Positions 1-16,689 of a DNA stretch of 64,000 bases are shown one piece after another. Source of the DNA: Jiangella muralis (GTDB taxonomy: Bacteria > Actinomycetota > Actinomycetes > Jiangellales > Jiangellaceae). A program made the translations under genes and the position numbers. The stretch is taken from NCBI RefSeq assembly GCF_001270745.1, contig NZ_KQ434752.1, forward strand, positions 103,125-167,124, given 5' to 3'. The first letter of the stretch is position 1. Every line of letters starts with the position of its first letter. The notes under the pieces are model-generated. The model had not been told where the DNA came from. It made no database searches and saw only the letters and a program-made list of their open reading frames with translations.

Positions 1-1122
1 CGGCGTCAGCAGCACGACGTGGTCGGCGCGGCGTCCGAGCAGGGCCGGCAGCCCGAGCCCGGCGACGGCCCGCTCGACGGCCGCCGTCAGCGCGTCGCCG
101 GCCGGCGCCGCCGGGGAGCCGATGACGACGGCGCGGTGCGGCGGGCCGAGGTCGTAGCCCACGGCCTCGGCCCGGGCCAGCACGCCGGTCTCGTCGACGC
201 CGTCGAGCAGGTCCTCGACGAGGTCGCGCCGCTGCTTCCCCTCCACTTCGGCCACCGCCTGGACGTGCGCCAGCTCGCCGGACAGCACCAGCGCGGCGTG
301 CGTCAGCGCGAACCGGTCGCGCTCGCCCGCCATCCGGCCCGGGTCGACCAGCGCGATCGTGCCGAGCACCTCCTGCCGCGGCTGCGCGGCCGCGACCAGG
401 CGGTCGCCGTCGCGGACCGGCAGCGGGCCGCGCAGGTCCGGCGCGCCGGCCTGCGCCGCGGGCGCCTCGGGCGGCTCGGCCAGGCCGGACCACGCGCGGG
501 CCTGCCCGGACGCATCCTCGATGACCACCGGCAGGCCGGTGATCGCGTGCAGCGCCTCGGCGATGGCGCGGATGCGGTCCTCGGTGGCGTCGACGGCGGC
601 ACGGGCCAGCGTCTCCTGAACGGCGACCTGCTGGCGCAGCTGCGCCTCGGCCCGGTGGAGGTCGCCGGTGGTCCGGCGCAGCCGGCGGCGCAGCGCGTCC
701 TGGCCGAGCGCGACGGCGGTGTAGCGGGCCAGGCTGGCGAGCAGGAACCGGTCGTCGGTGCTGGGCGGCCGGTCACCGCCGACCACGAGGTGGCCCTGCG
801 GGCCGTTCGCGGCGTGCATGGCGTACGCCCACGCCCAGCCGTGCCCCTTGGCGCCGACCCGGCCGCCGGCGGCGCGCAGGCCGCTGATCCCGGCGGCGGA
901 CGCGTCGCCCGCCTTGCGTGGGACGGCCACCACCTCGCACGCGGTCCAGGAGCGGACGGCGCCGCGGGCCAGCTCGACGATCTGCGCCGCCGGCCGCCCG
1001 TCGGCCATCAGCAACGACAGGGCCAGCAGCTCACGCAGCCGCGCTGGGCCGCGCCGGGCCGCCGAGGTTCCCACGACAGGCGGCTGCGGCGCCCCACCCC
1101 GAGCGCTGCCGCTGTGCGACAT
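1..1122 (-). CDS. PucR/CdaR-type transcriptional regulator, 3' part outside the window
   Basis: An open frame runs from an ATG at 1122 to the window edge without a stop (374 codons). The visible part starts with a disordered 20-residue stretch, then a GAF-like sensor region (about residues 25-150), a helix likely to form a coiled coil (LHRAEAQLRQQVAVQE), a second sensor-like region (about 170-290) and the start of the CdaR-like central domain (EVEGKQRRDLVEDLLDG). This order is typical of PucR-family regulators, whose HTH_30 DNA-binding domain sits at the C terminus and would lie off the window. The ligand is unknown. The gene is divergent from the GAF-ANTAR gene. The plus-strand frames over it are antisense shadows. 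Confidence 0.75.
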   Translation of the reverse strand, partial: MSHSGSARGGAPQPPVVGTSAARRGPARLRELLALSLLMADGRPAAQIVELARGAVRSWTACEVVAVPRKAGDASAAGISGLRAAGGRVGAKGHGWAWAYAMHAANGPQGHLVVGGDRPPSTDDRFLLASLARYTAVALGQDALRRRLRRTTGDLHRAEAQLRQQVAVQETLARAAVDATEDRIRAIAEALHAITGLPVVIEDASGQARAWSGLAEPPEAPAAQAGAPDLRGPLPVRDGDRLVAAAQPRQEVLGTIALVDPGRMAGERDRFALTHAALVLSGELAHVQAVAEVEGKQRRDLVEDLLDGVDETGVLARAEAVGYDLGPPHRAVVIGSPAAPAGDALTAAVERAVAGLGLPALLGRRADHVVLLTP

Positions 1123-1332
1123 CGTCCCAGTCTGCCCCGTCACGGGTCACATGTCAGGCCATTCGGCCGGGACACGCCCGGCAGACTGGTCCGTCCACCC
1201 CTCTCGACCTGCCAGGACGGTCCGCGCGGGCCCCTCTCGTCCCGTCAGGCCGAAGCCGTTTCCGCTGGTCGGTGACATCGTCGACAGCAGGACCAGCCGA
1301 TTTTCAGGTACGAGGCGACGGGGGCGGAGCCG

Positions 1333-2067
1333 ATGACCACGGACCAAGCGATGACCACGGGGCCCAAGACGGCCTGTGCCCTGCTGACCAGCAGCGGCAC
1401 GTTGCACGACTTCCTGACCGGCCTGGCCGGCAGCATCGCGCACGAACTGGGCGGCGGGGTGTCCTGCTCGGTGACGGTGCGGCGCGGGCCGCGACTGCCG
1501 GTGACGTCGGGCAGCAGCGACGCCGTCGCCGCGGCCCTGGAGGAGACGCAGTACATCACCCAGGAGGGGCCGACACTGCAGGCGGTCCAGACCGGCGAAC
1601 CGGTGACCGTGGAGTACCTGCCGGTCGACGTGCGCTGGCCGGAGCTGACGCTGCGCGGCGCCGCCGACGGCGTGGCGACGGTGTTCGCGGCGCCGGTCGA
1701 TGGCGACCTCGCGCCGCTCGGCGCCGTCACCGTCTACGCGCGGCGGGCGGAGGCGCTGGACGCCGCGGCCCGGGCCCGGACGGCGGAGCTGGCCGGTCGG
1801 CACGCCGACGCGTTGCACATCGCGCTGCGGATGTTCGAGTACGCGGCCCACGCCGAACACCTGCGCGTCGCGCTGACCTCGCGCTACGTCATCGACCAGG
1901 CGCTCGGGGTGCTGATGAGCAAGCACAGCTGCAACGCCCGTACGGCGTTCGAGGTGCTGCGCCGCCGCTCGCAGCGCGACAACGTCAAGCTGCGCAAGAT
2001 CGCCGCCGAGATCATCGTGTCCACGACGGGCGAGGCGCCGCTCCCGCCGGGGGCCCTCCCGCCGTAG
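1333..2067 (+). CDS. GAF and ANTAR domain protein (putative antiterminator)
   Basis: This 244-residue protein has an N-terminal GAF-like domain (about 20-160) and a C-terminal ANTAR domain (about 165-230; YVIDQALGVLMSKHSCNART followed by the LRRRSQ helix). ANTAR domains bind tandem RNA hairpins and act as transcription antiterminators, with the GAF domain presumed to sense a ligand. Such proteins are abundant in actinomycetes and mostly lack known targets. The start is chosen because GGCGGAG lies just upstream of the ATG; a second in-frame ATG lies six codons in. The gene is divergent from the PucR-type gene and 12 nt upstream of the phosphoesterase on the same strand, so the two may be co-transcribed. 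Confidence 0.85.
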   Translation: MTTDQAMTTGPKTACALLTSSGTLHDFLTGLAGSIAHELGGGVSCSVTVRRGPRLPVTSGSSDAVAAALEETQYITQEGPTLQAVQTGEPVTVEYLPVDVRWPELTLRGAADGVATVFAAPVDGDLAPLGAVTVYARRAEALDAAARARTAELAGRHADALHIALRMFEYAAHAEHLRVALTSRYVIDQALGVLMSKHSCNARTAFEVLRRRSQRDNVKLRKIAAEIIVSTTGEAPLPPGALPP

Positions 2068-2079
2068 GATCGGCGGGCG

Positions 2080-2829
2080 ATGATCCTTGCCCACGCCAGT
2101 GACCCCCACGTCGGCAGCGTGCACGACGCCGCGCTCGCCGCGGTGTTCGCGGCGCTGCCCGCCGCGCTCGGCTCCGTCCTGCCCGCGCCCGACCTGCTGC
2201 TGCTCACCGGCGACCTCACCGACCACGGCACCGCCGTCGAGTACCGGCGGCTGGGCGCGCTGCTCGAGCCACTCGGGGTGCGCTGCCTGGTGGTCGCCGG
2301 CAACCACGACGATCCCGCGGTGCTGCGCGCCGAGCTGCCGCAGCTGCTGGGCGTCCCCGCCGACGCCGCCGGGTCACCGGCCGCCTGGACCGAGACCGCC
2401 GGCGGCGTCCTGCTGATCGGCCTGGACAGCTCGTCCGGCACGCTCGGCGAGGCGCAGCTGGCCTGGCTGGACGGCGTGCTGGCGGCGTCCACCGGGCCGG
2501 CGCTGGTCGTGCTGCACCACCCGCCGTTCCGCACCGGGCTGGCCCAGCTCGACACCGAGTGGCCGCTCACCGACGCGGCCGCCCTGCGCGCCGTCGTGGC
2601 CCGGCACCCGTCCGTCGCCGCCGTCCTGTGCGGGCACGACCACCGGCACATCGCGACGCGGCTCGACGGCGCCGTGCCGATGGTGTCGGCGCCGGCGCTG
2701 TCATGGCGGCCGCACCTGGACCTGCGCCCGGACGTCCCGCTGACCCCGTCCGCCGAGCCCGCCGCCCTCCTCGTCCACGTCGTCGACGAGCTCGGGTTGC
2801 GCACCCACCACCTCGCCCTGAGCGGCTGA
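2080..2829 (+). CDS. Metallophosphoesterase (calcineurin-like, CpdA/Icc type)
   Basis: The 249-residue protein carries all the metal-binding blocks of the calcineurin-like phosphoesterase fold: D-x-H in ASDPHVG near residue 10, GDLTDHG near 45, GNHDD near 73, LHHPP near 147 and GHDHRH near 187. Length and motif order fit class III cyclic-nucleotide or other small phosphodiester hydrolases; the substrate cannot be told from sequence. No signal peptide is seen, so it is probably cytoplasmic. Its TGA is directly followed by the TCA of the convergent ppk2 gene with no spacing (TGATCA at 2827-2832), so no separate terminator fits between them. Confidence 0.88.
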   Translation: MILAHASDPHVGSVHDAALAAVFAALPAALGSVLPAPDLLLLTGDLTDHGTAVEYRRLGALLEPLGVRCLVVAGNHDDPAVLRAELPQLLGVPADAAGSPAAWTETAGGVLLIGLDSSSGTLGEAQLAWLDGVLAASTGPALVVLHHPPFRTGLAQLDTEWPLTDAAALRAVVARHPSVAAVLCGHDHRHIATRLDGAVPMVSAPALSWRPHLDLRPDVPLTPSAEPAALLVHVVDELGLRTHHLALSG

Positions 2830-3741
2830 TCAGCCGACCATCTCGGCCTCGAGGAGCCGGCGAGCGCGGAGGTTGGCCTCGTGGTCTGCGGCGGAGACGA
2901 CCGGCCACTGCAGGTCGAGCCCCTGGATGGCCTCCAGGATGACGGCCGCGACCAGGGCCTGGGTGACGCTCTTCTGGTCGGCCGGCACCACGTACCAGGG
3001 CGCCCACGCCGTCGACGTCGCGGACAGCGCCGCCTCGTAGGCGGCCTGGTAGTCGTCCCACAGCGCCCGTTCGGCGACGTCGGCGGCGTTGAACTTCCAC
3101 TGCTTGTCCGGGTTGTCGAGGCGGGCCATGAACCGCCGGTGCTGCTCGTCCTTGGAGACCTGCAGGAAGAACTTGACGATCTTGGTGCCGTTGCGGTCCA
3201 GGTGCCGCTCGAAGGCGTTGATGTCCTCGTGGCGCGCGGCCCAGAAGGCCGGCCCGCGGCCGCCCGCCGGCAGCTTCTGCGCGTCCAGCCACTCCGGGTG
3301 CACCCGCAGCGCGATGACCTCCTCGTAGTGCGACCGGTTGAAGATCCCGATCCGGCCGCGCTCGGGCGCCGCCTTCGCGATGCGCCACAGGTAGGTGTGG
3401 TCCAGCTCCTCGGCCGACGGCTTGCGGAACCCGACGACGTCCACGCCCTGCGGGTTGACGCCGGACATGACGTGCTCGATCGCCGAGTCCTTGCCGGCGG
3501 CGTCCATCGCCTGGAAGACCACCAGCAGCGCGTACCGGTCGCTGGCCCAGAGCAGCTCCTGCGCGTCGGACAGCGCGGACACGCCCTCCCTCAGCAACTC
3601 GCGCGCGGTCGTGTCGAGCTCCGGCGCCGTCAGCGCGCCCAGCTCGCCGCCGGCCGACCAGCAGGTGTCGCGTCCGGCCAGGTGCGCCGGCGTGCCCGGC
3701 CGCACGCGTAACCCGTCGACGATCCGGCTGCGTCTGTCCAT
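2830..3741 (-). CDS. ppk2: Polyphosphate kinase 2 family protein
   Basis: PPK2 enzymes move phosphate between polyphosphate and nucleotides in the cytoplasm. The 303-residue protein has the PPK2 Walker A (FQAMDAAGKDSA, about residue 75), the Walker B-like region (GIFNRSHYEEV, about 140) and the lid and C-terminal block (HLDRNGTKIVKFFLQVSKDE, about 185). The single-domain length and the motif HVMSGVNPQG resemble class III (AMP/ADP-phosphorylating) members, but class is not certain. The ATG at 3741 is used because the P-type ATPase stop lies only 5 nt upstream; the frame reads on further without meaning. It is last in an operon with the ATPase and a DUF7144 membrane protein. Confidence 0.88.
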   Translation of the reverse strand: MDRRSRIVDGLRVRPGTPAHLAGRDTCWSAGGELGALTAPELDTTARELLREGVSALSDAQELLWASDRYALLVVFQAMDAAGKDSAIEHVMSGVNPQGVDVVGFRKPSAEELDHTYLWRIAKAAPERGRIGIFNRSHYEEVIALRVHPEWLDAQKLPAGGRGPAFWAARHEDINAFERHLDRNGTKIVKFFLQVSKDEQHRRFMARLDNPDKQWKFNAADVAERALWDDYQAAYEAALSATSTAWAPWYVVPADQKSVTQALVAAVILEAIQGLDLQWPVVSAADHEANLRARRLLEAEMVG

Positions 3742-3746
3742 CGTCC

Positions 3747-6457
<2,711 letters not shown>

Positions 6458-6461
<4 letters not shown>

Positions 6462-6868
6462 GGCGCGAAGATGCCGGAGCGGACGATCGCCCACATCGAG
6501 AACACGCACAGCGCGATGACGATCATCGACCAGACCGGATAGTGCGGCAGGAAGAGGAAGTTCGAGATCGCCGACAGCCCGGCCAGCGCCATCGCCGCAC
6601 CGGCCGCGACCCGGCTGCCGCCGTACAGCGCGAACCCCGCGATCATCAGCAGGAGCGCGAGCACCAGGTGGATCCAGGCCCACGCCCCGACGCTGATGTC
6701 GTACGCGTACGCGGGCACGTCGGCGTAGAAGTTCTCGTCGATGAGCGCGGTCAGCCCTTCCAGCGACTGGAACACGCCGAGCAGGATCATCATCGTCGCG
6801 GCGAACATCACTCCGGTCTCGGCCCACGAGTCCGTGCGCGACCTCTGCGGCTCGAATGTGCTGGTCAT
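6458..6868 (-). CDS. DUF7144-type four-helix membrane protein
   Basis: This 136-residue protein has four predicted membrane helices, starting near residues 18, 58, 85 and 110, with the motif GVFQSLEGLTAL after helix 1. It matches the actinobacterial DUF7144 family as I recall it; the function is unknown. The start is set by a strong GGGGGGAGG ribosome site 5-6 nt before the ATG at 6868. The stop overlaps the ATPase start by four bases, so the two are translationally coupled. It is first in the DUF7144-ATPase-ppk2 operon, divergent from the ycaQ-like gene with about 100 bp between. Confidence 0.8.
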
Positions 6869-6965
6869 GACGCCTCCCCCCAGGTTCGTCGGGCTCATGG
6901 TCCACCCGCGGCGGGTGCGGGGCCTCACCCGCGCGGGGTGAGCCCCACCGTCTAGCGTGGGCGCC

Positions 6966-8060
6966 GTGACGGTGCACGAGCTGACCCGGGCCGAGGCCCG
7001 GCGCATCGCCGTCCGCGCACAGCTCCTCGACGCCGACCGGCCGGACGATCTGGACGATGTCGTGCGGGGGCTGACGGCGCTCGTCCACGACCCGGCGTCG
7101 GCCGTGGCGCCCGCCGCCGACCTCGTCGTGTGGAGCCGCCTCGGGCCGGAGTACGACCCGTCGGAGCTGGCCACGGCGCTGGCGGAGCAGCGGCTGGTCG
7201 AGCTGCGCGGCGTCATCCGCCCGATCGAGGACGTCGCGCTCTATCGCGCCGAGATGGCCGCCTGGGACCGGCCCGAGCCCGGTGAGCCGGCCTGGCGGGA
7301 GCGGCAGCGCGCCTGGGTGCACGACAACGAGGGGTTCCGCCTCGACCTCCTCGAGCGGCTGCGCGCCGACGGGCCGCTGCGCTCGCGCGACCTCCCGGAC
7401 ACGTCCGTGCGGCCGTGGCGGTCGTCCGGCTGGACGAACAGCCGCAACGTGCGGCAACTGCTGGCGTTCCTGGTGCAACGCGGCGAGGTCGCCCTGCACG
7501 GCCGCGAGAACGGCGACCCGCTCTGGGACCTCGCCGAACGCGTCTACCCCGACGACGTCGTCCCGGCGGCGCAGGCGCTGTGCCGCCGCGACGAGCGGCG
7601 GCTGCGCTCGCTCGGGCTGGTCCGTCCGGCGGCGTTGGAGTCACCGGGCGAACCGGCCGGCGAGCCCGCGGTCGTCGACGGCGTCCGGGGCGCCTGGCGG
7701 GTCGATCCCGCCCAGCTCGGCCGGCCGTTCGCCGGGCGGACGGCGCTGCTGTCGCCGTTCGACCGCCTCGTCTACGACCGCAAGCGCATGGCCGACCTGT
7801 TCGAGTTCGACTACCAGCTGGAGATGTTCAAGCCCGTCGGCCAGCGGCGGTGGGGCTACTTCGCGCTGCCCGTGCTGCACGGCGACCGGCTGGTCGGCAA
7901 GGTGGACGCGACGGCGGACCGCCGGGCCGGCGCGCTGCGGGTGGACGCCGTCCACGAGGACGTTCCCTTCACCCTCGCGACGGCCGCCGCCGTCGACCAC
8001 GAGATCGACGACCTCGCCCGCTGGCTCCGGCTGGTCCCCGTCCGCCGGGACCGGCGCTAG
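6966..8060 (+). CDS. ycaQ: YcaQ/AlkX-type winged-helix DNA glycosylase family protein
   Basis: The 364-residue protein fits the winged-helix family PF06224, whose members include E. coli YcaQ, a glycosylase that unhooks interstrand crosslinks. Visible family blocks are the N-terminal ARRIAVRAQLLD segment, where the catalytic Q-x-D or Q-x-Q motif lies (QLLD here), two winged-helix repeats (LRSRDLPDTSVRPW, LLAFLVQRGEVALHG) and the C-terminal LLSPFDRLVYDRKRMADLFEF block. Two in-frame GTG codons (6957 and 6966) could start it. There is no ribosome site, and TAGCGT at 6953-6958 sits seven bases before 6966, so a leaderless start at 6966 is preferred. Crosslink repair itself is inferred. Confidence 0.85.
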   Translation: MTVHELTRAEARRIAVRAQLLDADRPDDLDDVVRGLTALVHDPASAVAPAADLVVWSRLGPEYDPSELATALAEQRLVELRGVIRPIEDVALYRAEMAAWDRPEPGEPAWRERQRAWVHDNEGFRLDLLERLRADGPLRSRDLPDTSVRPWRSSGWTNSRNVRQLLAFLVQRGEVALHGRENGDPLWDLAERVYPDDVVPAAQALCRRDERRLRSLGLVRPAALESPGEPAGEPAVVDGVRGAWRVDPAQLGRPFAGRTALLSPFDRLVYDRKRMADLFEFDYQLEMFKPVGQRRWGYFALPVLHGDRLVGKVDATADRRAGALRVDAVHEDVPFTLATAAAVDHEIDDLARWLRLVPVRRDRR

Positions 8061-8101
8061 CTGAACGAGTCCTCGTGATCTACGCAGCCTGGCGGTTCCG
8101 T

Positions 8102-8160
8102 GCCGTTCGCCGTGGTCCGCACGTTGGCCGTCCCCCTGCCGCCCATTCTCTCAGCCGCGT
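8102..8160 (-). repeat. Repeat module R1, copy a
   Basis: Read on the minus strand it carries the core GCGGCTGAGAGAATGGGC followed by a run of G, then GACGGCCAACGTGCGGACC. Copies b (8672-8745), c (30471-30526) and d (30645-30700) share this core. Copies a and b face each other 510 bp apart, like terminal inverted repeats. Confidence 0.75.
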
Positions 8161-8248
8161 GACCGCGCCTCAAGTCCGCCCAAGGGGGGGTCGCTTCGCG
8201 ACGACGGGGCGTACTTGACCCGCGGTCCCGCGGCCAAGAACGGGCACC

Positions 8249-8276
8249 TATCAGGGGGACGGGGAAAGACTGGGCA
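8249..8276 (+). repeat. Repeat module R2, copy a (short)
   Basis: Carries TATCAGGGGGACGGGG, the start of module R2 also seen at 8470-8575 (minus strand) and 30530-30630. Only the first 25-30 bases match in this copy. Confidence 0.6.
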
Positions 8277-8303
8277 CACCTCACTTCACCCGCGCCGGGA
8301 GCA

Positions 8304-8369
8304 CCTCACCCGCGCCAGCACCGCATGGCCGCCGATGACGACCGTCATCCGGTGCTACGGCGGGTGAGG
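8304..8369. repeat. Imperfect hairpin within the repeat region
   Basis: Arms CCTCACCCGC (8304-8313) and GCGGGTGAGG (8360-8369), with an inner pair AGCACCG (8317-8323) and CGGTGCT (8350-8356). It could be a transcribed structure or part of a mobile repeat. Confidence 0.6.
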
Positions 8370-8469
8370 CGCTCCCCACGCGAGTGACGTCGACGATCTG
8401 GGCCGTCTTCGATAGCCAGAATCGTCCAACGGCGCCCGGAACACGACTCCCGCCATCGAAGACGGCTCC

Positions 8470-8575
8470 GGGAGTCGAGGACGACCGAACGGTGCACCGG
8501 CAGGAACAGCGAACGCCAGCCAGGCGAACGGTGCGCGGCGCGGGCTCTGCCCGCACTTCCCCCGTCCCCCTGATA
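8470..8575 (-). repeat. Repeat module R2, copy b (long)
   Basis: Read on the minus strand: TATCAGGGGGACGGGGGAAG, then TGCGGGCA, a GC-rich middle, GTTCCTGCCGG, GCACCGTT and GTCCTCGACTCCC. The same order of blocks appears on the plus strand at 30530-30630, so the match covers about 100 bp. Confidence 0.72.
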
Positions 8576-8671
8576 ACTGCCCGCACTTAGACCGCGCGCG
8601 TGCGGGTCAAGTCCAAGCCCCCAAGCCCAGCGAACGCCGACCACAGCGGCGCGGACTTGAGGCGCACGCGC

Positions 8672-8745
8672 GCGGCTAAGAAAATGGGCAGCAGGGGGAC
8701 GGCCCACGTGGCCATGACGGCCAACCGCCGCACGACGGCGAACCG
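8672..8745 (+). repeat. Repeat module R1, copy b
   Basis: Core GCGGCTAAGAAAATGGGC, then CAGGGGGACGGCCCACGTG, and a tail ending in CGACGGCGAACCG. It is inverted relative to copy a, so the pair bounds a segment of about 640 bp. Confidence 0.72.
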
Positions 8746-9053
8746 TTACACGATCCCCACCCCACCGTGTGGATTCGCTGCGCCAGGTGGGGCGGATCAC
8801 TGTTCCCCTGACAACAGCAACGCCACCCGCCACGCACAGTGATCCCACCCAATGGCGCACCAGGGGGCGCACAGTCGCCGCCGCTCAACGATGCCGAGAT
8901 CGACGTGAGATCGCTGCGGAAACGACGCGGCATCACTGTCGCGGACACGACAGTGTTTCACCTCGTCACGCAGCGACCCCACACCGTTGCGCCGGCCGGC
9001 AAGGCGCCGCCACCGGGCTACATCCATGTCACGTCGCGTCGCCGAAAGCGAAG

Positions 9054-9797
9054 TTAGAGGTCGAGGAGGCCGGGCTGCGCCGGGACCGCCTCGGCCACCA
9101 GGCCGGCGTGGTTGTTGCGGACGTTCCCGACCTCGGGCCCGACCGGCCGGGCGGTCAGCGCCGCACCGGCCCGGGCCGCTGCCGAGCGGGCGAGGTCGAG
9201 CAGGGCCGCCGCTTCCTCGTTGCGGCGGTCCAGCCAGTCCGGGATCTCCGCCGCCGTCAGCAGCACCGGCATGCGGTCGTGGATGTGCGCCAGTTCCGGC
9301 ACCGGCGTCGTGGTGAGGACGCTGGCCGACAGCACCCAGCGGTCCGGGTGGTCGGCGGGGACGGACGGGTCGGGCCACCATTCGAACACGCCGGCCATCG
9401 CGAGCAGGCCGGCGTCGCCGTGGATGAAGTAGGGCTGTTTCGCGCGGCCGGGGCCCCGCTGCCATTCGTAGTAGCCGCGGGCCGGGAGGACGCAGCGGCG
9501 CCGCGCGATCGGGCCGCGGAAGGCCGGCTTGTCCGCGACGGTCTCGATGCGGGCGTTGATCATCGGGGCGCCGCCGCGGGCGTCCTTCGCCCACGATGGG
9601 ATCAGCCCCCAGCGCGCGGCGTGCAGCTGCCGGGTCCGCTCCGGCGGCTCGTCGGTGCGTTCCAGCACGACGGGGACGCGGTCAGTGGGCGCCACGTTGT
9701 ACGAGGCCATCAGCTCGAGCACCGCGCCTGACGCGATGGCGTCGAACTCCGCCGCGAGGTCGTCCATCGACGCGTCAGCCACGTACCGTCCGCACAC
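9054..9797 (-). CDS. SRAP family protein (HMCES/YedK-like abasic-site DNA-protein crosslinker)
   Basis: SRAP proteins bind abasic sites in single-stranded DNA and form a crosslink through Cys2. The GTG at 9797 is chosen because it yields Met-Cys-Gly-Arg-Tyr, placing the invariant catalytic Cys at position 2; the longer frame with an ATG-like start would bury it. Other family blocks are SYNVAPTDRVPVV with the catalytic Asn (about residue 32), ARWGLIPSWAKD (about 63), NARIETVADKPAFRG (about 81), GYYEWQR with the Glu (about 107) and HDRMPVLL (about 163). At 247 residues it is the usual length. The start overlaps the 3' end of the truncated secDF by 23 nt. Confidence 0.92.
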   Translation of the reverse strand: MCGRYVADASMDDLAAEFDAIASGAVLELMASYNVAPTDRVPVVLERTDEPPERTRQLHAARWGLIPSWAKDARGGAPMINARIETVADKPAFRGPIARRRCVLPARGYYEWQRGPGRAKQPYFIHGDAGLLAMAGVFEWWPDPSVPADHPDRWVLSASVLTTTPVPELAHIHDRMPVLLTAAEIPDWLDRRNEEAAALLDLARSAAARAGAALTARPVGPEVGNVRNNHAGLVAEAVPAQPGLLDL

Positions 9798-11569
9798 GCC
9801 CCGATTGTCCCTCACCGCGACCGGCGACGGCCACGGACCCGCCGGGCCGGCGCCGCTCCCAGCGGACCAGCAGCGGCACCGCGATGAAGATGGACGAGTA
9901 GGTGCCGGCCAGGATGCCGACGAACAGCGCCAGCGCGAGATCCTCCAGCGTCTGCGCCCCGACGGTGACGGCGCCGGCGATCAGCATCCCGGCCACCGGG
10001 AGCAGCGCGATCAGCGACGTCGACACCGAGCGGAGCAGCGTCTGGTCGACCGCCCGGCTCGCCGCCTGCGCGTACGTGACGCCGCGGGCGCGGTGCCCGG
10101 TGTTCTCGCGCACCTTGTCGAACACGACGACGGTGTCGTACAGCGAGTAGCCGAGGATGGTCAGCACGCCGACCACGGTGGCCGGGGTGACGGTCAGCCC
10201 GGCCAGCGCGTACACGCCGACGGTGATGGCGAGGTCGTGCAGCAGCGCGGCGAACGCGGCCAGCGCCACGACCGCCTTCCGGGTGACGTCGTGGCCCCAG
10301 CTCGGCCCGATGACGTCGGTGGTGACGTCGTCCGCGGACACCCCGGCGGCCTGCGCGACGGTGTCCTGCAGCTCGGCGGCGCGGTCCGCGTCGGACGTCC
10401 CGACCTCGACGACGATGCTGCCGTCGCCGAGCTGGCGCACCTGGGCGCTGTCGACGCCGTCGGCGGCCAACGCGTCCTCCACCTGGCCGACGGTGGCCGA
10501 GCCGCCGTGCGTCTGGATGATCGCGCCGCCCTCGAACTCGACGCCGAGCTGCAGGCCACGGACGGACAGGCCGGCCACGGCGAGGACGAGCACCACGCCG
10601 CTGAGGGCGAACCAGCGGCGGGACCGCCGCACGACGTCGATGCTCGCCTCGCCGCGGTGCAGCCGGGCGCCCAGCGAGGCCTGGCTCGCGTCCAGGCCGG
10701 ACCAGCGGCCGCGCAGCCACCAGCCACGCACCGCGTACGCGACCACCGGCCGGGTGAACAGGAAGACCGCCGTCAGGTCGATCAGCGTCGCCAGGCCGAG
10801 CGCGAAGGCGAAGCCGCGCACCTGGTCCGCCGACAGCAGGTACAGCACGGCCGCGGACAGGAACGACACGGTGTCGGCGACGAGGATGGTGCGCCGCGCC
10901 CGCCGCCAGCCGTACTCGACCGCCGACCGGGTGGTGCGGCCGTCGCGGCCCTCGTCGCGGACACGATCGAAGAACACCACGAACGAGTCGGCCGTGATGC
11001 CGACCGCGACGATCAGGCCGGCGATCCCGGCCAGCGACAGCCGGTAGTTGACCTGCGCGCCGAGCAGCGACACCGCCGCGTAGGAGCAGCCGGCCGCGAG
11101 CAGCAGGCTGGCGACGGCGATGACGCCGAGCCGCCGGTAGTAGGCCAGGCAGTACAGCGCGACCAGCCCGAGCCCGATCGCCCCGGCCACCAGCCCGGCG
11201 TGCAACTGTGTGGCGCCCAGCGTCGGCGAGATCGTGCTGACCTGGCTCTTCTCGAACGCCAGCGGCAGCGAGCCGTAGCTGAGCACGTGTGCGAGGTCGG
11301 TCGCCTCCTGCTTGGTGAACGTGCCGGTGATCTGCGCCCGCCCGCCGCTGATGACGTCGACGATGCGCGGCGACGACACCACCAGCCCGTCCAGCACGAT
11401 GGCGATCTCGTTCTTCAGCGCCGGCTGGTCCACGACCGCCTTCGTGGCGTCGGCGAACTGCTGCTGTCCGGTGTGGTCGAACTTCAGGTCCACCTGCCAG
11501 CCGCCCGCTCCCCCGGCCGGGACCCCCGCCTGGGCGGCGGACAGGTCGGTGCCCTCGACGACGGCCGGG
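9775..11569 (-). pseudogene. secDF: SecDF-type protein translocase, 5'-truncated
   Basis: About 590 residues of a fused SecD-SecF are readable: the end of the SecD periplasmic part (VVEGTDLSAAQAG, GGWQVDLKFDHTG), the SecD membrane block (GITADSFVVFFDRVRDEG) and a full SecF half (ITVGVYALAGL, LGYSLYDTVVVFDKVREN). The first membrane helix and most of the first periplasmic domain are missing. Upstream of about 11569 the frame runs antisense through a histidine-kinase gene, so the residues there are not SecD. No credible start exists at the break. It is probably a non-functional second copy, with the housekeeping secD and secF elsewhere; that part is inference. Confidence 0.8.
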
Positions 11570-11826
11570 TGCGGTTCGAGGTGGACGACTCCGGGCCGGG
11601 CGTGCCGGAGGACCGGCGGACGCGGATCTTCGACCGCTTCGCCCGCGACGGGGTCAGCGGCGGCCGCGGTGGCCGCGGCGTCGGCCTCGGGCTGGCGATC
11701 GTGGCCCAGCACGTGCGCTGGCACGGCGGCACCGTCACCGTCCTGGACCGCCCCGGCGGCGGCGCCCGCTTCGTCGTCGACCTCCCCGTCGTCCGGTCCT
11801 CCTCCGCCGCGCTCGGGCTCCCATGA
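11557..11826 (+). pseudogene. Sensor histidine kinase, C-terminal fragment
   Basis: About 90 residues of an HK ATPase domain remain: DDGRVRFEVDDSGPGVPED (G1 box), RIFDRFAR (F box), GRGVGLGLAIVAQHVRWHGG (G2 box) and a normal C-terminal end GGARFVVDLP. The dimerisation helix, H box and N box are absent. Upstream of about 11557 the plus strand is antisense to secDF, so the gene was cut exactly where secDF was cut. The stop (11824-11826) lies inside the 11820-11877 palindrome. Confidence 0.8.
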
Positions 11827-11877
11827 TCATCGGCGATCGACCACGTGATGGTGTGGTCGATCGCCGATGATCATGGG
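11820..11877. repeat. Perfect 25-bp palindrome (hairpin A), CATGATCATC family
   Basis: Arms 11820-11844 and 11853-11877 pair without mismatch (CCCATGATCATCGGCGATCG and complement), with the 8-nt loop GTGATGGT. It sits at the stop of the kinase fragment and at the broken 5' edge of the next gene. A near-identical copy lies at 49568-49629. It may act as a terminator; no U-tract follows. Confidence 0.85.
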
Positions 11878-12319
11878 CGGCGTGCGTCAGCCGAGCATCA
11901 GCCAGTTCCTGTCCGGCAGGATCGAGTTCAGCGACGAGCAATTGGATCGGCTGCTGTCGTGCATGGGATACCGGCTCGAGGTCAGTCACCGACCCGTTCG
12001 CCCGCAGCTCACTCGCTCCGAGCGCAGGTCCTGGCAGCTCCACCGCCGGCTGTCCACTCACCTGTCCAGGTCGGGCCTGCAGGAATGGCAACCGACCATC
12101 GAGCGGAACCTGGAGCGTCTGAGAACAAGCGTCCGAGGTCAGCCGCACCTACGCAACCTCGATCGTTGGGAGTCGCTCGTCCGGCGTACCGATGTCCCGG
12201 GCCTGCATCGCGTGCTGACCGGGCTGGATCGCGACTCGATCGAGATGCGAGAGGTGTCGCCGCTAGGAGGGCTGCTCTCGCAGGACGAGCGGTCTGAAGT
12301 CCTTCGCACGGTGAGCTGA
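11878..12319 (+). pseudogene. XRE-like helix-turn-helix protein, 5'-truncated
   Basis: The readable part opens in the second half of an HTH domain (GVRQPSISQFLSGRIEFSDE, then LDRLLSCMGYRLEV) and continues with a basic, helical C-terminal region (TRSERRSWQLHRRLSTHL). The first HTH helices are missing and the coding match begins exactly at the right edge of hairpin A; the ATG within the hairpin (11867) gives four unrelated residues. Its TGA overlaps the ATG of the next frame (TGATG at 12317-12321), as in toxin-antitoxin-like gene pairs. The gene has probably lost DNA-binding function. Confidence 0.65.
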
Positions 12320-12515
12320 TGCGCCGAGACCAACTGGAACACGCCATCCGGACCGCATCACCTTCCGCGAGGACGAACTGCCCGCCGAAGCGGCGATGTC
12401 GGTCGAGGTGGACATTCTCCCGATCGCCGATGGCGATCATCGAGGGAGTCGCTGGAGAGTTCTCACCCTTCGAGGAGATGCACGGCTTCAGTATCGACGG
12501 CGTCGACCTGACGCA
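12319..12515 (+). pseudogene. Broken downstream partner of the HTH gene (possible nucleotidyltransferase-like protein)
   Basis: Three coding blocks appear in different frames: MRRDQLEHAIRTA (from 12319), TFREDELPAEAAMSVEVDIL (from 12360) and IIEGVAGEFSPFEEMHGFSI (from 12436). The E-V-D acidic pair after a hydrophobic strand recalls the metal motif of AbiEii/DUF6036-type nucleotidyltransferases, and the pairing with an XRE-like gene is typical of such modules. At least two internal deletions and loss of the 3' half make this a pseudogene. The family assignment is tentative. Confidence 0.55.
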
Positions 12516-12562
12516 CCCTTCACGCACGGGTAGACCCCGGACAGTTGCGGCGTCAGAACCCG

Positions 12563-13813
12563 TCAGCGGGCGGCGCCGCCGCGGCGCTTGTTCCAGATGT
12601 CGAAGGCGACGGCGAGCATCAGCACCAGGCCCTTCACCACCGACTGCACCGACTGGTCGACGCCCATGAGCTGCATGCCGTTGCTCATCACCGCCATGAT
12701 CAGGCCGCCGACCATCGCGCCGACGACGGTGCCGACGCCGCCGGTCACCGCCGCTCCCCCGATGAACGCCGCCGCGATGGCGTCCAGCTCGAACATCGTC
12801 CCCGCCGCCGGCTGGGCGCCGTTGGACCGGGACGAGTAGATGACGCCGGCGACGGCGGACAGGAAGCCCATGTTGACGAAGATCCAGAAGTTCACCGTCC
12901 GCACCCGCACGCCGGACAGCAGCGCCGCGGACAGGTTGCCGCCGATCGCGTACACCTGGCGGCCGAACACCGTCCGCTTGGTCACGACGGCGTAGGTGAT
13001 GACCAGGACGCCGAGGATGATCAGCACGATCGGCAGCCCGCGCGCGTGCGCCAGCTGCCAGGCGAAGTACATGATGACGGCGCCGACGGCCAGCACCCGG
13101 GCCACGAACAGCGGGAACGACTCCACCGGCTGGCGGTAGCGGATCCGCGCGACCCGGGTCCGGAACCCGCTGACGGCGTATCCGGCCACCGCGAACGCGC
13201 CGATGAACAGCGTGAACGCGTCGTAGCCCTGCCCGCCGAACAGGCCGTTGAGGAAGCCGCTGGCGACCCGCTGGTACTCGGACGGGAACGGCGACAGCGA
13301 GATGTTGTCCAGCACCTGCAGCGTCAGCCCGCGGAACAGCAGCATGCCGGCCAGCGTCACGATGAACGCCGGGATGCCGACGTAGGCGACCCAGAATCCC
13401 TGCCAGGCGCCGACCGCGACGCCGACCAGCAGCGCCGCCACGATGCCGATCCACCAGGCGTAGCCCTGCTGGATCACCAGCACCGCCGACACCGCGCCGG
13501 TCAGCGCCACCACCGACCCGACGGACAGGTCGATGTGCCCGGCGATGATGACGATCACCATCCCGATCGCCAGCACCAGGATGTAGGAGTACTGCAGGAC
13601 GATGTTGGTGATGTTGCCGGGGCTCAGCAGCACGCCGTCGGTCAGGATCGCGAACAGCGCCACGATCACCACGAAGGCCACGTAGATGCCGCTCTGCCGC
13701 ACGTTGCGGGTCACCAGCGTGCGCAGGTTGCTGGTGCCGGTGTGCAGGGCGGCGGCCTGGGCGCTCTCCGCCTCGGCGCGGTCGTCGGCCGGCGGCCGCT
13801 GCGTGCTGGTCAT
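12563..13813 (-). CDS. mmsB: Multiple-monosaccharide ABC transporter permease (MmsB/GguB type)
   Basis: This 416-residue permease belongs to the ribose/xylose-type (BPD_transp_2) family, with about ten membrane helices. The family motif AGHIDLSVGSVVALTGAVSA lies near residue 90 and IGGNLSAALLSGVRV near 290. The unusually long cytoplasmic insert (RYRQPVESFPLF, about 235) is what I associate with GguB/MmsB. The ATG at 13813 overlaps the ATPase stop (ATGA). It is last in a minus-strand operon: binding protein, ATPase, permease. It would import pentoses or hexoses; the exact sugar is not visible. Confidence 0.88.
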   Translation of the reverse strand: MTSTQRPPADDRAEAESAQAAALHTGTSNLRTLVTRNVRQSGIYVAFVVIVALFAILTDGVLLSPGNITNIVLQYSYILVLAIGMVIVIIAGHIDLSVGSVVALTGAVSAVLVIQQGYAWWIGIVAALLVGVAVGAWQGFWVAYVGIPAFIVTLAGMLLFRGLTLQVLDNISLSPFPSEYQRVASGFLNGLFGGQGYDAFTLFIGAFAVAGYAVSGFRTRVARIRYRQPVESFPLFVARVLAVGAVIMYFAWQLAHARGLPIVLIILGVLVITYAVVTKRTVFGRQVYAIGGNLSAALLSGVRVRTVNFWIFVNMGFLSAVAGVIYSSRSNGAQPAAGTMFELDAIAAAFIGGAAVTGGVGTVVGAMVGGLIMAVMSNGMQLMGVDQSVQSVVKGLVLMLAVAFDIWNKRRGGAAR

Positions 13814-15342
13814 GCGGCGCCCTCCTTCGTCATCAGTGCCATGAGGTTCTCCTGAGTGGCCGCGCCGACCGGCAGCTCGCCGGTGAGCCGGCCCGCGGCC
13901 AGCGTGTAGATGCGGTCGCAGACGCCGAGCAGCTCGGGCAGCTCGGACGAGATGACGAGGACGCCCTTGCCGGCCGCGACCAGCCGGTTGATGATGGTGT
14001 AGATCTCGTACTTCGCGCCGACGTCGATGCCGCGGGTCGGCTCGTCCAGGATCAGCACGTCGGGGTCGGCGAACAGCCACTTGGCCAGCACGACCTTCTG
14101 CTGGTTGCCGCCGGACAGCGTGCCGACGGACGTCATGACGCTCGGCGCGCGGATGCCGAGGTAGGACCGGCTCTCCTCGGCGACCCGGATCTCCTCGTTG
14201 CCGTCGACCCAGCCACGGCTCGCGAGCTTGCGCAGCGCCGCCGCGGACACGTTGCGGCGCACGTCCTCGATCAGGTTGAGGCCATACTTCTTGCGGTCCT
14301 CGGTGGCGTAGGCGATGCCGTTGCCGATCGCCTCCGACACCGACCGCGCCCGCACCTCGCGGCCGCGCACGTAAAGCCGGCCGCTGACGTCGCGGCCGTA
14401 GGACCGGCCGAACACGCTCATGGCCAGCTCGGTGCGCCCGGCGCCCATCAGCCCGGCGATGCCGACCACCTCGCCCGCGCGGACCGCCAGGCTGACGCCG
14501 TCGACCACCTTGCGGTCCTGGCTGGGGTGCCAGACGGTCCAGTCCTCCAGCCGCAGCACCTCCTCACCGGGTGCGCTGACGCGGTCCGGGTAGAAGCTCT
14601 CCAGGTCGCGGCCGACCATGCCGCGGATGATCCGCTCCTGCGTCGCCTCGCCGTCCGACGTACGCAGCGTCTCGACCGTCCGGCCGTCGCGCAGCACCGT
14701 GATGGCGTCGGCGATCGACGTCACCTCGCCCAGCTTGTGCGAGATGAGGATGCAGGTGATGCCCCGGTCGCGCAGCCGGCGCAGCAGGTCCAGCAGGTGC
14801 GCGGAGTCGGTGTCGTTGAGCGCGGCGGTCGGCTCGTCCAGGATCAGCAGCCGGACCTCCTTCGACAGCGCCTTCGCGATCTCGACCAGCTGCTGCTTGC
14901 CGACGCCGAGCTGCGCGACCGGCGTCACCGGGTTCTCGTCCAGGCCGACGGACGCGAGCAGCGCGGCCGCCTCGGCGTTGGCGCGGTTCCAGTCGATCAG
15001 CCCGCCGCGGCCGCGGCGCTCGTTGCCGAGGAACACGTTCTCGGCGACCGACAGGTGCGGCACCAGCGCCAGCTCCTGGTGGATGATCACGACGCCGACG
15101 GCTTCACTGTCGCGGATGCCGTGGAACCGGGCCGGCTCGCCGCCGAGGACGATGTCGCCGTCGTACGAGCCGGCCGGATGCACCCCGGACAGCACCTTCA
15201 TCAGCGTCGACTTGCCGGCGCCGTTCTCGCCGCAGATCGCGTGGATCTCGCCGCGCCGCACCACCAGCGAGACGTCCCGCAGGGCCGTGACGCCGGGGAA
15301 GGTCTTGGTGATGCCGCGCATCTCCAGGATGGTGTCGCTCAT
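13810..15342 (-). CDS. mmsA: Multiple-monosaccharide ABC transporter ATP-binding protein (MmsA/GguA type)
   Basis: A 510-residue protein with two ABC domains. The first has Walker A CGENGAGKST (about residue 38), a signature replaced by LGVGKQQL and Walker B LLILDEPTAAL. The second has a degenerate Walker A (GLMGAGRTEL, about 295), signature LSGGNQQKV and Walker B VLILDEPTRGID. A degenerate second site is normal for sugar importers of the RbsA/XylG/MglA class. It couples ATP hydrolysis to sugar import with the permease downstream and the lipoprotein upstream, 9 nt away. Confidence 0.92.
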   Translation of the reverse strand: MSDTILEMRGITKTFPGVTALRDVSLVVRRGEIHAICGENGAGKSTLMKVLSGVHPAGSYDGDIVLGGEPARFHGIRDSEAVGVVIIHQELALVPHLSVAENVFLGNERRGRGGLIDWNRANAEAAALLASVGLDENPVTPVAQLGVGKQQLVEIAKALSKEVRLLILDEPTAALNDTDSAHLLDLLRRLRDRGITCILISHKLGEVTSIADAITVLRDGRTVETLRTSDGEATQERIIRGMVGRDLESFYPDRVSAPGEEVLRLEDWTVWHPSQDRKVVDGVSLAVRAGEVVGIAGLMGAGRTELAMSVFGRSYGRDVSGRLYVRGREVRARSVSEAIGNGIAYATEDRKKYGLNLIEDVRRNVSAAALRKLASRGWVDGNEEIRVAEESRSYLGIRAPSVMTSVGTLSGGNQQKVVLAKWLFADPDVLILDEPTRGIDVGAKYEIYTIINRLVAAGKGVLVISSELPELLGVCDRIYTLAAGRLTGELPVGAATQENLMALMTKEGAA

Positions 15343-15351
15343 CGCGGGGCC

Positions 15352-16488
15352 TCAGTCGGTCTGGCCGGCGGCGACCTCCTCGGCCGTGTAGTAGCCGGAG
15401 TCGACGAGCAGCGGCGCGATGTCGTCGGCGTACACGGTCTCGACCGGCAGCAGGTACGACGGGACCACCTTGACGCCGTTCTCGTACGTCTCGGTGTCGT
15501 TGGCCTCCGGCTCCTCGCCGGCCAGGAACGCCTCCGCCGCGGCGACGGCCTGCTCGGCCAGCAGCCGGGTGTCCTTGAAGATGGTGGAGTTCTGCACGCC
15601 GTCGTCGATCAGCTTCACCGACGCGATCTCCGCGTCCTGCCCGGTGACCACCGACATCGGGCTGGCGGCCGCGCCGTAGCCGGCGTTCTGCAGGGCCGTG
15701 ATGATGCCGCGCGACAGCCCGTCGTACGGCGACAGCACACCGTCGACCCGCGAGCCGTCGTTGTAGCTGGACGTCAGCAGGTCCTCCATGCGCCGCTGCG
15801 CGGTCTCCTGCTGCCAGCGCAGGATCGCGACCTGCTCGATCTCGGCCTGCCCGGATTTCACCGCCAGCGAGCCGTCGTCGATGAACGGCTGCAGCGTGTC
15901 CATCGCGCCGTCGAAGAAGAAGTGCGCGTTGTTGTCGTCCAGCGACCCGGCGAACAGCTCGACGTTGAACGGGCCGGTCGCCTCGCCCGGCTGCCCGTCC
16001 GCCGTCAGCAGCCCGAGCCCGGTCAGCAGCGCCTCGGCCTGGGCGACGCCGACGCGGTAGTTGTCGAAGCTGACGTAGAAGTCGACGTTCTCGCTGTCGC
16101 GGATCAGCCGGTCGTAGGCGATGACGGGGATGTCGGCGTCGGCGGCCGCCTGCAGCTGGCTGCTCAGCGCCGTCCCGTCGATGGCGGCGATGATCAGGAC
16201 GTCCGCGCCCTGCGTGATCATCTGGTCCACCTGCTGCGACTGCGTCGGGATGTCGTCGCCGGCGTACTGCAGGTCGACCTGGTAGCCCAGCTCCTCGAGC
16301 TGCTCGCGCACCGAGTCGCCGTCGGCGATCCATCGTTCCGACGTCTGTGTCGGCATCGAGACGCCGATCGTGCGGTCCTCGGGAGGGGCGGACTCCTCGG
16401 TGCCGCCGCCCGCGCCCTCGCCGCCGCACGCCGCCACCGTCAGGGCCAGCAGCGCGCCGCCGACCAGGGCTTTGACTCGTAGGTTCAC
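15352..16488 (-). CDS. chvE: ChvE-like sugar-binding lipoprotein
   Basis: This 378-residue protein begins with a lipoprotein signal (VKALVGGALLALTVAACGG; lipidated Cys near residue 20) and continues as a type I periplasmic binding fold: IGVSMPTQTSERW (about 40), GADVLIIAAIDGTALS (about 90), VIAYDRLI (about 118) and VTGQDAEIASVKLI (about 270). These blocks match ChvE, the multi-sugar receptor. The GTG at 16488 is used because GGGAGGGG lies 5 nt upstream and it places the signal peptide correctly; an ATG further upstream would add 43 odd residues. It is first gene of the operon; a palindrome 67 bp upstream may be its operator. Confidence 0.9.
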   Translation of the reverse strand: MNLRVKALVGGALLALTVAACGGEGAGGGTEESAPPEDRTIGVSMPTQTSERWIADGDSVREQLEELGYQVDLQYAGDDIPTQSQQVDQMITQGADVLIIAAIDGTALSSQLQAAADADIPVIAYDRLIRDSENVDFYVSFDNYRVGVAQAEALLTGLGLLTADGQPGEATGPFNVELFAGSLDDNNAHFFFDGAMDTLQPFIDDGSLAVKSGQAEIEQVAILRWQQETAQRRMEDLLTSSYNDGSRVDGVLSPYDGLSRGIITALQNAGYGAAASPMSVVTGQDAEIASVKLIDDGVQNSTIFKDTRLLAEQAVAAAEAFLAGEEPEANDTETYENGVKVVPSYLLPVETVYADDIAPLLVDSGYYTAEEVAAGQTD

Positions 16489-16554
16489 AAGGCCCCTCCC
16501 TCGCAGCAACGGGCCATGTGACCCGCCGCTGGATAACATCCGGAATATGCTGGT

Positions 16555-16568
16555 TGTGAACGTTAACA
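16555..16568. promoter_or_regulatory. LacI-type operator candidate upstream of the sugar transporter
   Basis: TGTGAACGTTAACA is a 12-of-14 palindrome centred on AACGTT, close to the TGTTAACGTTAACA form used by LacI-family repressors of sugar genes in actinomycetes. No LacI gene is in this window, so the regulator would act in trans. Confidence 0.55.
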
Positions 16569-16689
16569 GCAGTTCTGCGACAAGGCTGTCACGATCCGGT
16601 AACGGGCCAGTCGTCACGGCCGGCCGCCGGAGCGCGAGCAGCCGGTCACGTCGCGCGGCGGACGCTGGTTGTACATCACAACCCTTCGA

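Follow-up and report, generated by a model that had tools for sequence, protein, structure and literature searches.

A probable 8.3-kb deletion scar joining remnants of a secDF gene and a divergent histidine kinase gene in Jiangella muralis

The point at which two divergent genes of the soil bacterium Jiangella muralis are cut head to head is very probably a deletion scar, left where about 8.3 kb of the chromosome was lost; the deletion would have taken place between two 12-bp direct repeats lying inside a secDF gene and a divergent histidine kinase gene. The window, meaning the whole stretch of 64,000 nucleotides analysed here, corresponds to positions 103125-167124 of contig C2 in a 7.27-Mb draft genome of 76 contigs. 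Completeness of this assembly is listed as 100 and contamination as 3.94; the latter value was counted as a point against the deletion reading. Comparisons within the genus were made with 11 other Jiangella genomes, labelled with G-numbers, and L021 and L045 denote coordinates of the locus in G004 and G010, respectively. The features of the junction region are listed in Table 1.

Table 1. Features of the junction region, in window coordinates
Feature	Coordinates	Strand	Remarks
Remnant of accessory (second) SecDF gene	9775..11569	-	Corresponds to the G004 gene (807 codons) from about codon 189 onwards; open frame
Second, in-frame deletion of 63 bp in the SecF half	10255..10272	-	10-bp direct repeat; kept copy GCCAGCGCCA at 10259-10268
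Junction, single kept copy of the 12-bp direct repeat ACGACGGCCGGG	11558..11569		In G004 a copy flanks the absent 8.3 kb on each side
Sensor histidine kinase remnant	11558..11826	+	Begins near codon 379 of 466 and includes the stop; HATPase_c without roughly its first third
Chimeric 649-aa open frame starting with the GTG at 11724	9775..11724	-	~52 residues antisense to the kinase, then the SecDF remnant

The junction and its counterpart in related genomes

The SecDF frame was read on the minus strand up to 11569, beginning PAVVEGTD..., with its stop at 9775. The kinase frame was read on the plus strand from about 11557 to a stop at 11826, and its ATPase domain begins DDGRVRFEV.... In the preliminary description of this DNA, both genes were without their 5' parts and cut at one point, and this was borne out by the frames, by Pfam and by alignment. 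The shared sequence proposed at the break is likewise real, its size being 12 bases (11558-11569) and not 13; base 11557 matches the SecDF side only, the G004 kinase having HDGRV there. When the window was aligned to G004, it matched the SecDF side as far as 11569, and its match to the kinase side began at 11558. Over the 141 bases of window 11500-11640, identity in the SecDF alignment changed from 63/69 to 27/71 bases across the break (base 11569 was left out of both counts), and identity in the kinase alignment changed from 20/57 to 77/84 bases. In G004 numbering the breaks lie at SecDF codon 189 and kinase codon 379.

In G004, ACGACGGCCGGG is present at both breakpoints (L021:3339-3350 and 11626-11637, 12/12 bases), and one copy, at 11558-11569, was found in window 1-13000. 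It belongs to the longest class of direct repeats between the two G004 genes (six pairs). The repeat at the junction is beyond chance, because only six exact direct-repeat runs of at least 12 bases are common to these genes, none is of 13 bases, and the probability that a random breakpoint pair falls in or at a run of at least 12 bases is 2.3e-5. The 12-bp identity was measured in G004, which is a relative and not the ancestor of the window's species, and this was counted against the deletion reading. The SecDF-side copy is identical in G008, where the kinase-side copy differs at 2/12 bases. For G001, a single base differs in the SecDF-side copy, and a clear kinase-side copy is lacking, the G001 kinase row being out of register by one base in the junction alignment and the BLAST match there starting only at 11565.

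Window 10900-12400 was searched against 40 genomes, comprising its own and those of 39 relatives, among which are 11 other Jiangella genomes. An undeleted arrangement with collinear flanks was found in 3/11 other Jiangella genomes (G001, G004 and G008). Both genes are intact and divergent in these three, the SecDF-side and kinase-side matches are separate on one contig in the same relative orientation, and the matching parts are ~8.3 kb apart. The comparison of synteny that had been proposed for the locus thus gave 8.29, 8.31 and about 8.37 kb extra relative to the window (8,287 bp in G004, 8,309 bp in G008 and about 8,371 bp in G001, computed from match coordinates). Among the matches listed in the 39 relatives, none extends more than 13 bases across the 12-base junction. 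It had been named as evidence to the contrary that relatives might possess a complete gene of this short form; the G004 genes are full-length, encoding an 807-aa SecDF and a 466-aa kinase, and the sole other short version seen among the 11 other genomes of the genus, that of G010, is a gene remnant too, broken at different points.

The interval in G004 contains, on the minus strand, the 5' part of secDF, two Opp/Dpp-type permeases, two ATPases and a family 5 (SBP_bac_5) binding protein, and on the plus strand an OmpR-type response regulator and the 5' part of the HAMP-HisKA-HATPase_c kinase. The two 5' halves enclose five genes of an Opp/Dpp-type ABC cluster together with a response regulator. 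The ABC proteins of this block were below NCBIfam equivalog cut-offs among the matches listed, and no substrate is claimed for them. SecDF, kinase and binding protein are all present at an identity of at least 81% in G004 (the query itself), G008 and G001. For 7/11 other Jiangella genomes, SecDF matches were at or below 36% and, among the matches listed, kinases did not exceed 41% or binding proteins 36%.

Content of the remnants and neighbouring features

Pfam matches in the window SecDF comprised SecDF_P1_head from profile position 18 and SecD_SecF_C, with Sec_GG just under the cut-off. The G004 SecDF gave SecD_1st, P1_head, SecD_SecF_C in two stretches and Sec_GG. SecD_1st, TM1 and the N-terminal P1 subdomain (the start of P1) are absent from the window protein, and by hydropathy scan G004 has an N-terminal membrane segment while the 649-aa chimera has none before residue 107. 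A further 21 residues are cut from the long SecF hydrophobic stretch (G004 residues 615-666) by the 63-bp in-frame deletion. A functional SecDF would be expected to have a first membrane segment, a complete P1 and a complete SecF membrane part; the remnant has none of these and is probably non-functional. It resembles the fused SecDF translocase subunit in matching TIGR01129 and TIGR00966 above their cut-offs, but differs from it in lacking ~188 N-terminal codons and 21 SecF residues. One protein alignment ran the remnant to residue 143, beyond the junction; this extension was taken as chance antisense similarity because DNA identity stops at the junction.

The remnant frame is without internal stop or frameshift. 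Over 581 codons, dN and dS were 0.029 and 0.127 for window-G004, 0.036 and 0.248 for window-G008, and 0.041 and 0.228 for G004-G008. By subtraction, dN/dS is ~0.17 on the window branch vs ~0.32 on the G004 branch and is not raised. With neither stop nor frameshift and with dN/dS not raised, long neutral decay of the SecDF remnant is not demonstrated. A recent deletion would fit the unraised ratio and intact frame best, and a remnant still under selection would fit too.

For the kinase, the only Pfam match in the window was HATPase_c 35-109 of 111, and matches in G004 were HAMP, HisKA and HATPase_c 2-109. The window remnant has lost HAMP, HisKA and the two membrane segments, along with the first third of HATPase_c. 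A HisKA phosphoacceptor and a complete HATPase_c, as expected of a functional sensor kinase, are both absent, and this remnant too is likely to be non-functional.

At the end of the kinase remnant, window 11820-11877 is occupied by a near-perfect palindrome of ~58 bp with arms GATCATCGGCGATCGACCAC. The arm has 26 copies at two mismatches or fewer in the host's own genome (14 forward, 12 reverse; control 0) and so represents a dispersed family; related copies of the palindrome are present in other Jiangella genomes. An Rfam scan of window 9000-13000 at gathering thresholds gave no match. Window 11867-12319 is a 150-aa open frame with no Pfam match, for which DNA relatives were found in G005, G021 and G009 (86, 78 and 77%) and in G019 and G017 (72 and 71%). 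At this place, between the kinase and the ABC genes that follow from window 12578 on, G004 and G008 have a different block. By reading of translations, the block in G004 and G008 appears to start with an arabinofuranosidase-like protein; the same block also follows the kinase remnant in G010. The frame at window 12319-12540 has no Pfam match and, by eye, seems broken by small deletions; it may be a decayed partner of the 150-aa frame. The ABC transporter cluster at window 12578-16632, apparently sugar-type by reading, is collinear with G004, G008 and G001 (96, 94 and 88-90%). Its best-scoring match in G010 is only 65%, which constitutes another presence/absence difference beside the scar. On the SecDF side, ~1 kb (window 8061-9054) has no counterpart in G010, whose flanking sequences adjoin each other at L045 9073-9075.

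Loss of the block in a second genome

G010, a single 7.49-Mb contig, carries only fragments of SecDF and kinase. A SecF remnant (L045 9925-10054) abuts a kinase remnant (10056-10214), and the breakpoints differ from those of the window. CGCGACGGTGTC, another of the six 12-bp repeats (L021:2135 and 11712 in G004), has one copy in L045, at 10061, with additional altered bases beside it at the join. The G010 deletion is likely, not certain, to have used this second 12-bp repeat pair, and an earlier, smaller gap could have grown into the present one. The 63-bp SecF deletion is common to G010 and the window, and a further 258-bp deletion between 10-bp repeats is present in G010. A 49% SecDF protein match at G010 3046962-3047195, on the strand opposite the kinase remnant, was set aside; it partly overlaps the true SecF remnant found by DNA. 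These statements on G010 rest on pairwise DNA matches and on repeat and hydropathy scans, the G010 row being misaligned in one multiple alignment.

One shared loss in the window and G010, as suggested by the common 63-bp deletion, is disfavoured, since G004, the nearer relative of G010, is intact. Grouping was assessed by comparing G001, G004, G010 and the window over sequence near the locus. In window 2849-7140 (4274 ungapped columns), 56 sites are shared by G004 and G010, 24 by the window and G004, and 19 by the window and G010; in window 9061-9800, G004 and G010 share 14 vs 6 and 7 for the other two pairings. G010 appears from these counts to group with G004, a grouping that recombination or ancestral polymorphism could upset. 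Two independent losses fit better because G010 groups with G004 and G004 is intact, and the losses in the window and in G010 look independent and parallel. More tentatively, and with considerable doubt, the secDF/Opp-type ABC/two-component block might be a recurrent deletion site in Jiangella, with at least two independent losses via different 12-bp repeats and the 63-bp SecF deletion arising twice; its loss may then be favoured, or the locus may be structurally prone.

Alternative explanations and mechanism

The missing 5' halves, which had been suggested to lie joined elsewhere in this genome, were looked for there by DNA and by protein and were not found among the matches listed. L021:3200-11800 gave 111 own-genome matches, of which the two window flanks were at 90% and 92%. 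Among the matches listed, the remaining ones longer than 400 bases were at or below 74%; shorter ones reached up to 91%, as expected of related ABC transporters and kinases. By protein, the SecDF matches in the genome itself were the remnant, at 89%, and a single full-length paralogue at 37% (C8:110924-113326), in which all SecDF domains are present. The kinase remnant matched at 93% and other kinases, among the matches listed, at no more than 39%. Binding proteins among the matches listed were at or below 35%, the best-scoring one being at 31%. A SecD_SecF_C profile search of the genome returned only the C8 gene, the window remnant and a weak match at C1:252490-252936. In sum, no close copy of the 8.3-kb block was found elsewhere in the assembly among the DNA and protein matches listed.

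An assembly artefact, in which two pieces were joined at the shared 12-mer and the 8.3 kb between them dropped, could arise in a draft of 76 contigs, and the join does coincide with a short exact repeat. Assemblers normally use overlaps longer than 12 bases, however, and 8.3 kb dropped in this way should turn up on a different contig, but no close copy was found among the matches listed; completeness is listed as 100. The join also lies well inside contig C2: its position there is ~114,690, and C2 has matches out to 443,165. In G010, assembled as one contig, this locus has undergone a similar loss; a misjoin is considered very unlikely. Two divergent genes cut at one point can also look like the breakpoint of an inversion or translocation that attached the lost gene halves to other DNA elsewhere. 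This reading is contradicted by the three relatives in which the counterparts are same-oriented on one contig, and among the matches listed for the genome itself neither gene had a 5' half at orthologue level. Of the inversion or deletion originally envisaged at the short shared sequence, the deletion stands; inversion is ruled out by synteny, because both flanks are same-oriented on one contig in G004, G008 and G001, and the chance left to a breakpoint of this kind is negligible.

It might instead be supposed that the genes are real, the 649-aa frame and/or the 89-residue ATPase fragment being expressed and useful. Both frames are open, and dN/dS of the SecDF remnant is not raised. Open frames are nevertheless weak evidence in the GC-rich stretch holding both remnants, where long antisense open frames are common. 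The chimera is without SecD_1st and the first membrane segment, its ~52 antisense residues contain no hydrophobic stretch, and its SecF hydrophobic stretch is 21 residues shorter; the kinase piece has neither HAMP nor HisKA, neither membrane segment, and no first third of HATPase_c. Useful short or chimeric products are most improbable on this evidence.

The deletion reading agrees with what is expected of short-repeat deletions: undeleted relatives exist, the repeat stands at both ends in G004 with one copy kept in the window, and no close copy of the block was found elsewhere among the matches listed. A repeat-mediated deletion without long homology, through replication slippage or through annealing after a break, would leave one repeat copy in this way. 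In PMC4627823, RecA-independent deletion between repeats is ascribed to slipped misalignment in replication or to single-strand annealing after a break, the routes being described for short repeats in E. coli and in Deinococcus assays with 438-bp repeats; distance between the repeats disfavours the RecA-independent route in E. coli (PMC4627823). The present case is like those in E. coli and Deinococcus in that the stretch between two direct repeats is lost, but differs in that 12-bp repeats would act across 8.3 kb. That span is long for simple slippage between repeats of 12 bp, so annealing or end joining after a break would be at least as likely. These break-induced routes would be favoured for the large deletion; for the 63-bp deletion, slippage would be the preferred reading. 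The loss may have been tolerated, as another full-length SecDF remains and the transporter and two-component module are presumably accessory.

The event is of an ordinary kind of gene loss, and its recurrence is mildly interesting. Unneeded bacterial genes are described in PMC2916853 as removed by deletions, probably mostly large ones. The erosion of bacterial pseudogenes by deletional bias is similar in that unneeded genes are deleted (PMC2916853); here, by contrast, one event truncates two genes, and the block was seemingly lost in parallel in a second species. For annotation, the locus carries the warning that the 649-aa frame resembles a nearly complete SecDF but is a chimera. The locus would offer a clean natural case in which one event between 12-bp repeats, in a GC-rich actinomycete, removes a transporter and a sensor and damages two genes. 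Together with the likely parallel case in G010 it may form a small comparative system for repeat-mediated gene loss, and if the block were a recurrent deletion site, sister species could show which repeats are used and how often.
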